Source of the DNA: Qipengyuania nanhaisediminis
GTDB taxonomy: Bacteria > Pseudomonadota > Alphaproteobacteria > Sphingomonadales > Sphingomonadaceae
Length of the DNA stretch: 64,000 nucleotides
NCBI RefSeq assembly: GCF_900115585.1
Contig: NZ_FOWZ01000001.1
Coordinates: 951,461 to 1,015,460, forward strand
Direction: 5' to 3'
Each line of letters begins with the position of its first letter. Position 1 is the first letter of the stretch. A model generated the notes under the pieces. It searched no databases. It was not told where the DNA came from and saw only the letters and a program-made list of their open reading frames with translations. This document shows, piece by piece, positions 1-7,131 of the stretch. A program made the position numbers and the translations under genes.

Positions 1-71
1 CGGTTATCACCCGACGCGGTTCGACCGCGCGAAACACTCGCTTCATCAATTTCCGGCGAGACGATTTACAG

Positions 72-91
72 ATATAAAAATATCTTTATAT
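72..91. promoter_or_regulatory. Palindromic operator upstream of the ArsR-methyltransferase gene
   Basis: The sequence shows ATATAAA, a six-base AT-rich spacer and TTTATAT: a perfect 7-bp inverted repeat ending nine bases before the ATG at 101. A second, overlapping dyad (GATAT-AAAA-ATATC, 71-84) shares the site. The stretch is strikingly AT-rich against its GC-rich surroundings. ArsR-family repressors bind short AT-rich dyads like this near their own promoter, so autoregulation and control of the downstream metF-metH genes is the inference. The position would block the promoter or the start of transcription. Confidence 0.65.
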
Positions 92-100
92 GTTCGGGAA

Positions 101-1060
101 ATGCGGACCGAAGCGATCTTCCGTGCCCTTTCCGATCCGACCCGGATGCGTATCCTGCGCCTCCTGGGGTCGATGGAACTCGCGGTGGGCGAAATCGCAC
201 AAGTACTCGGACAGAGCCAGCCACGGGTGTCGCGCCACATCGGCATCCTGTGCGATGCCGGACTGGCCGAACGGCGCCGGGAAGGTAGCTGGATATTCCT
301 TCGCGCACGCAGCGATACTCCGATGTGCGGCGATGTCCTGGACCTTCTCTGCCAGGCGGAAGAGGTGGACGAGGAACTCGGGGCCCTGTGCGAGGGCGAT
401 CGACGCAAACTTTCCGAAATCCGTTCTGCAAGAGAGCATCAGGCCGAGCAGTATTTCGCAGATCATGCCCACGATTGGGACGAACTGCGCCGCCTCCATT
501 CCTCGGACGACGAAGTGGAAAGCGCCCTGCGATCCGCCCTGGGCGAAGGAGGGCTTGGACGCCTGCTCGATATCGGCACGGGAACAGGCCGGATGGCGGA
601 GCTGTTCGCCGAAAAAGCGGACCACATCGTCGCGCTGGACAAGAGCCTTGCCATGTTGCGCGTGGCCCGTGCCAAGCTCCAGCACCTGCCTACCGATCGT
701 GTGGAGCTGATGCAGGGGGACTTCGCTTCTCTCCCGTTCCCGCAAGACAGTTTCGATACGGTCCTGTTTCACCAGGTGCTGCATTTCGCAACCGACCCAC
801 GCCCGGTTCTGGCGGAAGCGGCACGAGTTACGCGGGAAGGCGGCCGGATCGCCATCGTGGACTTCGCTGCACACCACCGTGAAGACCTGCGCGAGCGCCA
901 TGCCCACGCACGCCTGGGTTTTGCCGACGAGCACATGGCGGGATTGCTGTTCGAGGCAGGATACGATCCGGCCGACCCGATATCGCTCGAGGATGGCGAG
1001 CTGGCAGTTAAAATATGGGTCGCGCGCCGCGATGCGGCCCAAGCAAGGAAAGTAATGTGA
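101..1060 (+). CDS. ArsR-family HTH regulator fused to a SAM-dependent methyltransferase domain (SamR/SahR-like methionine regulator)
   Basis: A 319-aa protein in two parts. Residues about 1-75 are an ArsR/SmtB winged helix (LSDPTRMRILRLL, then a recognition helix with QPRVSRHI). The region usually holding the metal-binding CxC motif has no cysteines, so metal sensing is unlikely. Residues about 130-300 form a class I methyltransferase fold with motif I DIGTGTGR, followed by an acidic residue at the next strand (ALDKS) and QGDFASLPF. ArsR-family methionine regulators that respond to SAM or SAH are known in Proteobacteria, and the neighbours metF and metH fit such a role. The ATG at 101 lies just after the operator at 72-91. 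The stop overlaps the metF start by four bases. Whether the methyltransferase domain is catalytic or only senses ligand cannot be told from sequence. Confidence 0.85.
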   Translation: MRTEAIFRALSDPTRMRILRLLGSMELAVGEIAQVLGQSQPRVSRHIGILCDAGLAERRREGSWIFLRARSDTPMCGDVLDLLCQAEEVDEELGALCEGDRRKLSEIRSAREHQAEQYFADHAHDWDELRRLHSSDDEVESALRSALGEGGLGRLLDIGTGTGRMAELFAEKADHIVALDKSLAMLRVARAKLQHLPTDRVELMQGDFASLPFPQDSFDTVLFHQVLHFATDPRPVLAEAARVTREGGRIAIVDFAAHHREDLRERHAHARLGFADEHMAGLLFEAGYDPADPISLEDGELAVKIWVARRDAAQARKVM

Positions 1061-1977
1061 GTCCGACACTCGACCAGATGCGTGAAGCGCAGAGAGCCCT
1101 GGAAACCCCGCTGTTTTCGGGCCTTCCGGGCGATATCGACGTCAGTTTCGAATTCTTCCCGCCCAAGAGCGACAAGATGGCGCAGACGCTCTGGGAAAGC
1201 GTCGAAACCCTGGCGCCCCTGTCGCCGCGCTTTGTTTCCGTGACATACGGGGCGGGCGGTTCCACCCGGGAACGAACCCATGCGGCAGTCCGCCGGATCG
1301 TGAACGAAACCTCGATGCCCGCTGCGGCCCACCTGACGTGCGTCAACGCGACGCGCGAGGAAGTCGACGCCGTGGCCCGCGAATACTGGGACGAAGGTGT
1401 GCGGCATATCGTCGCGCTACGCGGGGATCCGCCGGAAGGCGGAACCGCCTACACGCCGCACCCCGGTGGTTATGCCAATGCGGTCGAATTGATTGCCGGC
1501 CTGAAGCGGATTGCCGATTTTGAAATCTCGGTCGCAGCCTACCCCGAAGTGCACCCGGATTCTCCCGATCGGCAGGCCGATCTCGACAATCTGAAGCGCA
1601 AGTTCGATGCCGGCGCGACCCGCGCGATCACCCAGTTCTTCTTCGAGCCGGAATGTTTCTTCGATTTCCGAGACAAGGCCGTCGCTGCCGGGATCGAGGG
1701 CGAGATCGTGCCCGGGATCATGCCGGTCCTGAGCTTCGGCGCCGTCCAGCGCATGAGCGGCCTGTGCGGCACCGGCATCCCCGAATGGATGGAAGGGCTG
1801 TTTGCAGGGCTCGATGAGAAGCCCGATGCCCGCCAGCTGGTTTCGGCCACCATCGCCGCCGAAATGTGTCGCCGCCTGTATGCCGGCGGCGTTCGCCAGT
1901 TCCATTTCTACACTCTCAACCGCGCCGAGCTGAGCTATGCGATTTGCCATATGCTCGGCCTGCGACCTAAGGCCTGA
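1057..1977 (+). CDS. metF: 5,10-methylenetetrahydrofolate reductase
   Basis: The enzyme reduces methylene-THF to methyl-THF with FAD and NAD(P)H, supplying the methyl group for methionine synthase. The N-terminal FEFFPPK motif carries the expected catalytic glutamate (Glu32), and RGDPP supplies the conserved FAD-side aspartate. The chosen GTG start at 1057 follows an AAGGAAAG ribosome site at 1046-1051 and overlaps the regulator stop as GTGA, giving 306 residues, normal for the family. An upstream in-frame ATG at 1015 would add 14 residues inside the previous gene and lacks a good ribosome site. It is followed after two bases by metH, so all four genes from 101 to 5632 are probably one transcript. 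Confidence 0.93.
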   Translation: MSPTLDQMREAQRALETPLFSGLPGDIDVSFEFFPPKSDKMAQTLWESVETLAPLSPRFVSVTYGAGGSTRERTHAAVRRIVNETSMPAAAHLTCVNATREEVDAVAREYWDEGVRHIVALRGDPPEGGTAYTPHPGGYANAVELIAGLKRIADFEISVAAYPEVHPDSPDRQADLDNLKRKFDAGATRAITQFFFEPECFFDFRDKAVAAGIEGEIVPGIMPVLSFGAVQRMSGLCGTGIPEWMEGLFAGLDEKPDARQLVSATIAAEMCRRLYAGGVRQFHFYTLNRAELSYAICHMLGLRPKA

Positions 1978-1979
1978 CA

Positions 1980-3019
1980 ATGTCCAAGAGAGACGAATTC
2001 ATCGCCGCTGCAGCGCAGCGCATCCTGATCAAGGACGGGCCCTATGGCACCGAGATCCAGCGCGCCAATCTCGCCCCCGAGGACTATGCGGCGGGCACAG
2101 ACCTGACGCAGGACCAGAAAGGCAATAACGACCTGGTCAACCTCACCCAGCCGCAGGTGATCCGCAAAATTTGCGACAGTTATATCGACGCGGGCGCACA
2201 TATCCTCGCAACCAACACCTTCAACGCCAACCGGATCAGCCAGGCGGATTATGGCGCCGAGGGGCTTGTGCGCGAGATCAACGTTTCAGCCGCTCGCATC
2301 ATCCGTGAGGCAATCGACGCACGCGAGGATGGGGTCCAGCGTTTTGTCGCAGGGGCGGTGGGGCCGACCAACAAGACCCTATCCCTTTCGCCGGATGTCG
2401 AAGACCCCGGTTACCGTGAAGTGAGCTTCGACGAGATCGTCGACGTCTACCGCGAACAATGCGCAGCGCTGATCGAGGGCGGGGCCGATTTCATCCTGGT
2501 GGAGACGGTTTTCGATACGCTCAATTGCAAGGCCGCGATCATGGCCGTGAAGCAGTTGGAGCGCGAGCTCAGGCAGGACATCCCGGTGATGATCTCGCTC
2601 ACCCTGACCGACCTTTCCGGGCGCAACCTGTCCGGCCACACGGTGGAGGCATTCTGGCACACGGTGCGTCACGCCAAGCCTTTGACAATCGGCCTCAATT
2701 GCAGCTTCGGCGCGGAGCAATTGCGGCCCCACGTCCAGATCCTGTCAGACATCGCCGACACCTACCTCATGGCCTATCCCAATGCGGGCCTGCCGAACGA
2801 TCTCGGTGAATATGACGAGGTGCCTGAGACGACGGCCGCGCTGACCCGCGTGTGGGCGGAAAACGGCCGTATCAATGCGCTGGGCGGATGCTGCGGATCG
2901 ACGCCTGATCATATCGCCGCGATGGCCCGCGCCGTTGAAGGGCTGACGCCGCGCAGTGTCCCGGACAGCGAGGCTGAAATGCGCCTCGCAGGACTTGAAC
3001 CTTTCACGATTGCCGCCTG

Positions 3020-3020
<1 letters not shown>
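1980..3020 (+). CDS. metH: Methionine synthase, homocysteine-binding module (split MetH, part 1)
   Basis: This 346-aa protein is the zinc-dependent homocysteine-activating barrel of cobalamin-dependent methionine synthase. The three zinc thiolates are visible: Cys241 in LNCSFG and Cys304-Cys305 in GGCCGSTP. The N-terminal DGPYGTE and the ATNTFNAN segment are typical of the S-methyltransferase family. In Escherichia coli this module is the first of four on one chain. Here it is a separate gene that ends exactly where the next begins (TGATG, one base shared), so the two halves are translationally coupled. It could be mislabelled as a stand-alone homocysteine S-methyltransferase, but adjacency to the remaining modules argues for split MetH. 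Confidence 0.93.
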
Positions 3021-5632
<2,612 letters not shown>

Positions 5633-5689
5633 CCGCAGCGCCGTGATCGCGCAGGGCTGAACCGTCGGCTGCAGGAGCGATTCTGCGGC

Positions 5690-5886
5690 AGGCGCGCATG
5701 GGAGAGCCTGTGCGGGGGACACCCGCCCGGCGCCGAAGGAGCAACCGCCCCGGAAACTCTCAGGCCAAGGGACCGTGCGCTGCCATCGACACTCTGGAAA
5801 GCGTTTGTCGCAGCCGCGGCAGACCACCGAAGGGGTACGCGTGCTCATTTGCGCGCCAGTCTCTCAGGTTTCCCGACAGAGGGGGC
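5690..5886 (+). promoter_or_regulatory. Tandem glycine riboswitch upstream of the gcv operon
   Basis: Two glycine aptamers follow each other. The first (about 5690-5778) has GGAGAGCC, the core GCCGAAGGAGCAA and closing AACTCTCAGGCCAAGG. The second (about 5785-5886) has CTCTGGAAAG, ACCGAAGGGG and TCTCTCAGGTTTCCCGACAGAGG. These are the conserved blocks of the glycine riboswitch family, and the downstream gene is gcvT, its commonest target. Glycine binding normally switches the cleavage operon on. The region therefore should not be read as coding, although an open frame runs through it. The boundaries are approximate because pairing was judged by eye. Confidence 0.93.
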
Positions 5887-5898
5887 ATGGGTTGTTTC

Positions 5899-5916
5899 AG
5901 CGCCGTTCGCGGCGCT
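5899..5916 (+). promoter_or_regulatory. UUCG-loop hairpin between glycine riboswitch and gcvT (candidate expression platform)
   Basis: AGCGCCG, a TTCG loop and CGGCGCT form a perfect eight-pair (including A-T) stem directly after the second aptamer. It has no following T-run, so it is not a classical terminator. Its place between the aptamer and the ribosome site at 5932-5937 suggests a part in translational control, or simply insulation of the aptamer fold. The role is inference. Confidence 0.5.
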
Positions 5917-5943
5917 TCCATGCTTGCCACCAAGGGATGCGTC

Positions 5944-7131
5944 TTGAGCGATAATACCGACACACCGCAGGAAATCGAACAGCTGCCGCTGGATGCCTGG
6001 CATCGCCGCAAGGGCGCCCGCATGGTGCCGTTCGCGGGCTATGAAATGCCGATCCAGTACTCGGCGGAATCGGGCGGCGGGATCGTTGCCGAGCATGAAT
6101 GGACGCGCAGCCAGGCGGGCCTGTTCGATGTCAGCCATATGGGCCAGCTGATGCTGACCGGCGACAACGTCGCGGCGGAGCTCGAAAAACTGCTGCCCGG
6201 CGCGATCACCACGCTGAAGCCCGGCAAGGTGCGCTATTCGTTGCTTATCGACGAGGACGGCGGCATTCTAGATGACCTCATGGTCACCAATGCCACGCCG
6301 TGGATCGAGGCCGACGAAGAAGCTGGCACCGAAGGGCATTGGGGCGATCCGGCCTACTACCTGGTCGTCAACGGCGCGATGAAGTGGGACGATATCGCCC
6401 ACCTTCGCGAGCACCTGCCCGACGAAATCACGCTGACCCACATGGACGAGCACGCGCTGGTCGCCCTGCAAGGTCCCAACGCTGCCACCGCGCTCAACCG
6501 CGTCATGCGCAACACGATCGAAGACATGATCTTCATGGAAAGCGTGGTCCACGACTTCGGCGAATGGCCGCTGCGCATCACACGCGCGGGCTATACCGGC
6601 GAAGACGGCTTCGAAATCTCGGTTCCCGCCGAATTCGCCGAGAGCCTGTGCGATCGCTTGTGTGCCGAAATCGAGGTTCGCCCCTGCGGCCTGGGCGCGC
6701 GCGACAGCCTGCGCCTCGAAGCCGGCCTGCCGCTCTATGGCCATGACATCACGACCGAAACCGATCCCGTCTCGGCCGATCTCGGCTTTGCGCTGACCAA
6801 GCGTCGCCGCGAGGAAGGCGGCTGGATGGGCTATGAAAAAGTGATGGACGTTTTCAACTCCGGCGCCGCACGCAAGCGCGTCGGCCTGACCTTCGAAGGG
6901 CGCCTGCCCGCCCGCGAAGGGGCCAAGGTTTTCGACGGCGATACCGAAATCGGCCGCATCACCAGCGGCGGCTTTTCGCCTTCGCTCGGACACCCGATTG
7001 CGATGGGATACCTTGAAAAAAGCCACATCGAACCGGGAACCGAGGTCGAGGTCGAGGTTCGTAACAAGAGACTGCCCGCGAAGGTCACGACCATGCCCTT
7101 CGTCCCCCACCGCTATCACAGAGGGAAGTGA
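5944..7131 (+). CDS. gcvT: Glycine cleavage system aminomethyltransferase (T protein)
   Basis: The T protein takes the methylene group from the lipoyl arm of H protein to tetrahydrofolate, releasing ammonia. The sequence has the N-terminal [15 protein letters not shown], the folate-site segment [13 protein letters not shown] and the C-terminal [12 protein letters not shown]. Start choice matters because the frame stays open through the riboswitch. A TTG at 5944 has AAGGGA at 5932-5937 and gives 395 residues. An ATG at 5920 sits next to the hairpin with no clear ribosome site, and one at 5887 lies on the aptamer edge. TTG is preferred. The stop is followed within five bases by gcvH. Confidence 0.93.

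Follow-up and report, generated by a model that had tools for sequence, protein, structure and literature searches.

Near the beginning of the window, as we call the whole analysed stretch of 64,000 nucleotides of Qipengyuania nanhaisediminis DNA, lies a gene for a SahR-type regulator that we predict with high confidence to repress the sahR-metF-metH1-metH2 operon together with metK through a palindrome in the promoter, SAH being the likely signal for its release. Judged by its sequence, operator and gene order, the gene at 101-1060 is SahR, a kind of regulator published in 2014 and not a new one. The fused regulator-methyltransferase is assigned to this described kind because of the published SahR features.

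The sahR operon

The features of the locus are the following:

65 to 70, forward strand: -35-like element TTTACA, supported by conservation across loci
72 to 91, no strand assigned: predicted SahR operator, the 20-bp palindrome ATATAAAAATATCTTTATAT, between the -35-like and -10-like elements
87 to 94, forward strand: predicted -10-like element (TATATG at 87-92 or TATGTT at 89-94), overlapping the operator's right end
101 to 1060, forward strand: sahR, ArsR winged helix joined to a methyltransferase-like domain, 319 aa
113 to 316, forward strand: ArsR/SmtB-type DNA-binding domain, residues 5-72 (NF033788, 79 bits, cut-off 55)
551 to 1036, forward strand: methyltransferase-like sensor domain, residues 151-312 (Pfam and AlphaFold2 model)
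569 to 589, forward strand: SAM/SAH-binding loop DIGTGTG, residues 157-163
770 to 784, forward strand: HQVLH, residues 224-228, at the end of strand beta4 (strand 218-224), of presumed functional role
1057 to 1977, forward strand: metF, methylenetetrahydrofolate reductase, with a GTG start (TIGR00676, 337 bits, cut-off 293.7)
1980 to 3020, forward strand: metH1, homocysteine-binding part of a split methionine synthase (PRK09490 positions 8-355 of 1234)
3020 to 5632, forward strand: metH2, folate, cobalamin and activation parts of the split methionine synthase (PRK09490 positions 358-1230 of 1234)

The original prediction had sahR heading metF and a split metH with overlaps of four and one bases, and this gene order is confirmed: sahR and metF share the bases GTGA (1057-1060), metH1 and metH2 share base 3020, and metF and metH1 are separated by 2 bases without overlap. 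The TIGR00676 score of metF was taken with the earlier start at 1015, the ATG of this open reading frame being in the metF frame. The score of metH1 against PRK09490 is under the cut-off set for the whole protein, and metH2 reaches 1182 bits against TIGR02082 (cut-off 1011).

Downstream of the operon, a tandem glycine riboswitch at 5689-5889 (two RF00504 aptamers, 52.6 and 40.8 bits) sits between metH2 and a frame that reads by eye like gcvT. The glycine-cleavage genes, which supply one-carbon units, would thus come after the met genes that spend them, with a switch of their own.

Operator and promoter

The predicted operator consists of the arms ATATAAA and TTTATAT around the centre AATATC, with 9/10 positions pairing, and it ends nine bases before the ATG at 101, as had been stated for the dyad. 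The free N6 spacer originally given to this dyad had to be abandoned: the six central bases belong to the palindrome, which is 20 bp long, and relatives carry forms of it such as ATATAAAGATATCTTTATAT. Under a first-order Markov model of the window, the dyad arms are expected 1e-6 times in 64 kb and 5e-5 times in the genome, or about 0.004 times genome-wide with up to one mismatch.

The promoter elements around the operator were recognized mainly by comparison with the 72 operator-bearing loci of relatives described below. TT.AC directly precedes the operator in 61 of them, the hexamer before the operator matches TTGACA at 4/6 positions at least in 63 (versus 2.7% in the background), and the gap between operator and start codon is 7-13 bases in 69. 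A promoter scan of positions 1-6000 returned one promoter-like match, at TTTACA; because shuffled sequences give 1.2, the scan has no weight of its own and needs the conservation beside it. With the -10-like element placed over the operator's right end, transcription would begin at or near the start codon at 101. The sahR mRNA is predicted to be leaderless or near-leaderless, with few bases or none ahead of its start codon, and we infer from this layout that bound SahR would block RNA polymerase directly. Riboswitch control of sahR, metK and ahcY was rejected, as no SAM or SAH riboswitch was found at the Rfam gathering cut-offs in the window, in the stretch upstream of sahR, or in the metK and ahcY loci.

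The exact operator occurs once in the 2.9-Mb genome, at sahR. The sole copy with one mismatch, ACATAAAGCTTTCTTTATAT, lies 19 bp before the start of the unlinked SAM synthetase gene metK, and no operator was found at ahcY of the same genome. The ahcY query comprised 490 residues and began at a GTG that precedes the likely start codon, so that distances at ahcY can be off by about 20 codons. The matrix scores are 37.9 for the sahR site and 32.6 for the metK site; the third-best sequence, with two mismatches, scores 12.5.

This third sequence (C12:1961-1980 of the same genome, locus L003) is AT-rich and palindrome-like and is located on a 12-kb contig between genes that read by eye like an Rrf2/NsrR-type regulator and a haemoglobin. 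It was rejected as a SahR site and left out of the site count because of its low score and because another owner of the sequence is plausible.

The regulator protein

Pfam, an AlphaFold2 model and the positions of the cysteines all agree with the initial description of the protein as an ArsR helix-turn-helix (HTH) domain, without metal-binding cysteines, fused to a methyltransferase fold. Above the Pfam cut-offs are the ArsR HTH (HTH_20/HTH_5) at residues 10-58 and Methyltransf_11/25/31 at residues 154-258, and in the model (mean pLDDT 90, pTM 0.84) residues 153 to 310 form the succession of strands known from class I methyltransferases. The best Foldseek match is Rv2258c (PDB 5f8c/5f8e), over 361-368 columns; a PDB sequence search gave no chain that spans both domains among the best 60 of 72 and the best 60 of 131 matches, and our statements about the pocket are based on sequence and secondary structure.

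In the alignment of 117 proteins, the recognition helix region, which contains GQSQPRVSRH, keeps Q40, P41 and S44 throughout. The DIGTGTG loop is nearly invariant (D157, G159, G161 and G163 in 100% of the proteins, T160 in 99% and T162 in 98%), and beyond this SAM loop the family conserves H224-Q225, as well as D254, H258, R264, H269 and an RLGF stretch after beta5. Within HQVLH, H224 and H228 occur in 117/117 and Q225 in 114/117 proteins, and we take the position of HQVLH to be the place of catalytic motif IV of class I methyltransferases. The conserved pocket residues fit either a discrimination of SAH from SAM that would be signalled to the winged helix, or retained chemistry; two points favour the sensor reading, namely that SAM-cycle genes are the ones marked by operators and that the Desulfovibrio SahR is cited as SAH-responsive.

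Databases label relatives of the protein as 'metalloregulator ArsR/SmtB', in line with a metal- or arsenic-sensing ArsR repressor that stands beside the met genes by chance. We find this hardly credible, however, as the conserved metal-binding cysteines of metal-sensing ArsR/SmtB proteins are absent from the 117 aligned proteins, and throughout the family the operators go with metK and ahcY. Cysteines of SahR are found solely at residues 51, 76, 84 and 97, none of them conserved family-wide; the best cysteine column, that of residue 51, has it in 43/117 proteins, and the S. meliloti relative has no cysteine at all. The methyltransferase domain of the window protein is free of cysteine, and in a search for ArsM-type conserved cysteines in residues 120-319 no column was above 19/117. 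With no conserved cysteines in the aligned proteins, metal sensing and ArsM-type chemistry were both rejected.

Relation to SahR and SamR

According to what is reportedly described by Novichkov et al. in 2014, SAH releases SahR from DNA, and its sensor domain is related to SAM-dependent methylases. The joining of an HTH to a methyltransferase-like domain, said to be a property of SahR, is shared by the window protein. The original idea that such a regulator reads the SAM/SAH state through an enzyme-like domain at the adjacent operator is supported, but it had been anticipated by the SahR work of 2014 and is not new.

SahR was defined as a SAH-responsive ArsR-family regulator with a 20-bp palindrome, present in 7/7 Sphingomonadales genomes; its core regulon consists of sahR, ahcY, metH, metH2, metF and metK, where 'core' means present in >70% of SahR genomes and hence not in all (PMC4239095). 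As far as the available text of this source goes, the same traits recur here: the ArsR family, a 20-bp palindromic operator, a site for autoregulation, metF/metH/metH2/metK as targets, and the Sphingomonadales. Two differences from that text are the ahcY gene of Q. nanhaisediminis, which has no operator, and the placement of the operator between -35-like and -10-like elements with the start codon nine bases on. Desulfovibrio SahR is cited as SAH-responsive in two of the sources (PMC4239095, PMC8877191). Expression of sahR in Ensifer aridi was highest in the strain deleted for sahR, a gene listed there at 1023 bp (PMC8877191); the S. meliloti relative found in this study has the same length. 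The SamR regulator of Xanthomonadales is a distant SahR homologue that likewise stands beside metH genes and has metK and metF in its regulon; in contrast to the protein described here, it has a 24-bp motif of another type and about 30% identity to SahR (PMC4239095).

Conservation of the locus in relatives

The scan of species genomes covered the best 80 of 91 matched loci, which encode relatives of 44-96% identity. The original prediction had staked itself on the presence of the dyad and of the metF linkage in homologous loci, and on this count it was not refuted: metF is next to sahR in 75/80 loci (metH1 in 74/80 and metH2 in 72/80, the missing cases being five Sphingobium-like loci and short contigs), and an operator of >20 bits lies within 200 bases upstream of sahR in 72/80, a count that is partly by construction, because the scoring matrix was derived from 18 distinct sahR sites of the same 80 loci. 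Outside the stretch before sahR, no match above 15 bits was found in 988,325 bases of these loci. The counts for metK, for ahcY and for other families are independent of the matrix-building sites.

The exceptions are of two kinds. In L028, L030 and L089, the left half-site at sahR has decayed, and the site before metK is kept in their genomes. The Sphingobium-like loci L063, L074, L079, L082 and L087, which form one clade (support 0.997), have neither an operator nor metF beside the sahR-like gene; each of the five genomes holds an exact operator site elsewhere, and in Sphingobium sp. SYK-6 such sites stand before metK, before ahcY and before a gene whose product resembles, by eye, a MetE-type methionine synthase. 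Two Sphingobium-like genomes also contain a second SahR-like paralogue without a SahR operator (L182, L183), and the top-scoring sequences at these loci are AT-rich and of a different kind (ATATTCCTATATTCGCATAT-like).

A draw of 190 alphaproteobacterial genomes yielded 94 with a match at 1e-25 or better, and 27 of the best 30 loci, which were the ones used, come from other families. A full metF is next to the regulator gene in 26/27 of them, with a 79-residue metF-like piece in L131, and the operator is present in 24/27; it was not found in L133, L143 and L152. Relatives also occur in eleven plasmid records. The operator was found in 4/4 of those examined (S. meliloti, R. leguminosarum, Methylobacterium aquaticum and Sphingomonas parapaucimobilis), and the relative from S. 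meliloti, with 39% identity over 95%, has metF as well.

Regulator and operator in the family

Among 59 genomes of the same family, SahR was called at 200 bits at least in 52, two more have partial matches and were counted apart, and five have none at 1e-25; for sites, both short stretches (about 480-510 bases) and longer loci were scanned whole. The search for the motif before other methionine genes in relatives, suggested at the outset, was successful: the SahR-bearing genomes have operators at sahR in 49/52, at metK in 47/52 and at ahcY in 45/52 cases. The SahR-less genomes have them at metK in 2/5 and at ahcY in 2/5 (Fisher p 0.017 and 0.033, values that overstate independence because the genomes are related), and the genomes with partial matches in 2/2 and 2/2. 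An earlier, smaller count of metK sites (24/30) is superseded by these figures. In 27 of the 28 long sahR loci (L225-L252), 8-29 bases separate the best site from the matched start; the remaining one, L243, has no site.

The three SahR-less genomes that lack the operator at both metK and ahcY (G008, G014 and G026, three of the five) are nearly complete. The other two, G017 and G025, have sites at metK and ahcY, yet no SahR was detected at 1e-25; here the coupling may not be strict, or the gene may have been missed, or a divergent SahR, another divergent regulator or relic sites may be involved. SahR-like copies that are 45-47% identical, with no site above threshold at sahR, metK or ahcY, are found in G032 and G045. 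SahR is present in G013 with a site solely at sahR, and G034 has sites at metK and ahcY and none at sahR.

The top-ranking sequences of G038 share the beginning ACTTAAA at sahR, metK and ahcY alike; in G030 it is seen in one of the three (loci L264, L279, L305, L310, L327 and L328). Except for two sahR sites these sequences are below threshold and may be due to chance; because most of the sites are so weak, co-evolution of protein and site in the two genomes is a mere hint.

The composition of the regulon bears on the identity of the effector. If SAM rather than SAH were sensed, it would act as a co-repressor, and the methionine genes would open when SAM falls. The targets in the Q. nanhaisediminis genome, metF, metH and metK without ahcY, would suit this scheme, as would the pocket loop, which is that of a general SAM binder; for SamR, the absence of SAM-cycle genes except metK from its regulons was read as a hint of SAM (PMC4239095). 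We nevertheless consider SAM an unlikely effector, given that ahcY is retained in the regulon of most SahR-bearing genomes of the family, at the frequency given above, and that the SahR of Desulfovibrio is the one cited as responding to SAH.

ArsRM of Brevundimonas and the question of catalysis

A 2023 study of Brevundimonas sp. M20 described ArsRM, an ArsR-methyltransferase fusion encoded by the first gene of a metRFHH operon (PMC10190100). It shifts its own promoter fragment in an EMSA and the promoter has the AT-rich palindrome CTTTATATAAAG. Arsenite methylation, followed with a coupled SAH kit as the SAH formed out of SAM and arsenite, was reported at 0.87 U/mg, the assay legend listing controls that lacked SAM, arsenite or protein; for E. 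coli with the protein, an arsenite MIC raised to 1.5 mM was reported (PMC10190100). The operon order (regulator, metF, metH part, metH), the gene length of 960 bp and the binding to a promoter with an AT-rich palindrome agree with what is seen or predicted here; the difference is that ArsRM is presented as an arsenite methyltransferase (PMC10190100). We take ArsRM to be very likely SahR under another name.

A term search of the available text of PMC10190100 found no mention of SahR. In full-text searches, metRFHH was found in this paper alone, and the combination of SahR, arsenite and methylation gave two papers, with titles on protein lysine methylation and erythrocyte band 3. The two strands of literature, with SahR as a SAH sensor in one and ArsRM as an arsenite methyltransferase in the other, thus appear to be unconnected. 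If both are one family, as it seems, then SahR proteins would be enzymes unless the reported arsenite methylation is an artefact or a side reaction.

The residues named for ArsRM can be compared with those of the family, by a mapping made from the residue names in the text of PMC10190100 and not from a sequence alignment. Six of the eight named SAM contacts (H223, Q224, H227, F254, R263 and H268) map at a constant +1, and their window counterparts H224, Q225, H228, F255, R264 and H269 are kept in 117, 114, 117, 106, 117 and 117 of the 117 aligned proteins. The two others differ: C134 corresponds to S134/S135 in the window protein, with cysteine in 2/117 (column 134) and 0/117 (column 135) proteins, and P296 falls on column 297, where 59/117 have proline and the window protein has glutamate. 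Of the arsenite contacts, Q224 corresponds to Q225 (114/117), whereas Y228 corresponds to F229 in the window protein, in a column with tyrosine in 75/117 and phenylalanine in 42/117.

These data bear on the alternative that SahR is bifunctional, being a regulator and also an enzyme with a methyl acceptor in the cell, such as the arsenite claimed for ArsRM. In its favour are the six retained SAM contacts, H224-Q225 at the presumed motif IV position, and the activity and raised MIC reported for ArsRM, whose gene heads an operon of the same kind. We regard the alternative as quite unlikely all the same: the contacts C134 and P296 do not hold in the family, the tyrosine contact is phenylalanine in the window protein, cysteine reaches no more than 19/117 in any column of residues 120-319, and the gene neighbours are methionine genes. 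Moreover, the activity of ArsRM comes from one coupled SAH kit, with neither a mutant protein nor a separate identification of the product described in the available text (PMC10190100). Catalytic competence had been named as the open question about the fused domain; with the arsenite claim for ArsRM it was already a published subject, but the answer for SahR is beyond what sequence can decide.

A further variant, which we hold to be very unlikely, is that SahR slowly converts bound SAM to SAH on the DNA via a catalytic H224-Q225 and so makes its own inducer. If this were true, operator-bound SahR would be a timer of methyl flux and not a passive SAH meter, and the arsenite activity from Brevundimonas would be a glimpse of this SAM-to-SAH chemistry.

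Proposed mechanism

The preferred reading remains that of a repressor released by SAH. SahR would bind, presumably as a dimer, to the 20-bp palindrome inside the promoter and would repress the unlinked metK as well as the sahR-metF-metH1-metH2 operon that its gene heads. By analogy with the published SahR proteins, SAH accumulating from methylation reactions would fill the methyltransferase-like pocket, SahR would leave the DNA, and the switch would open. More MetF and MetH would then return homocysteine to methionine, and more MetK would convert methionine into SAM.

Overall, the AT-rich dyad and the gene of a kind that databases label 'metalloregulator' resolve, in this Qipengyuania-like alphaproteobacterium, to a SahR methionine switch. 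How far such a switch can be read from DNA alone is shown by the operator, which stands before three SAM-cycle loci across the family and is missing from metK and ahcY in three of the five SahR-less genomes.
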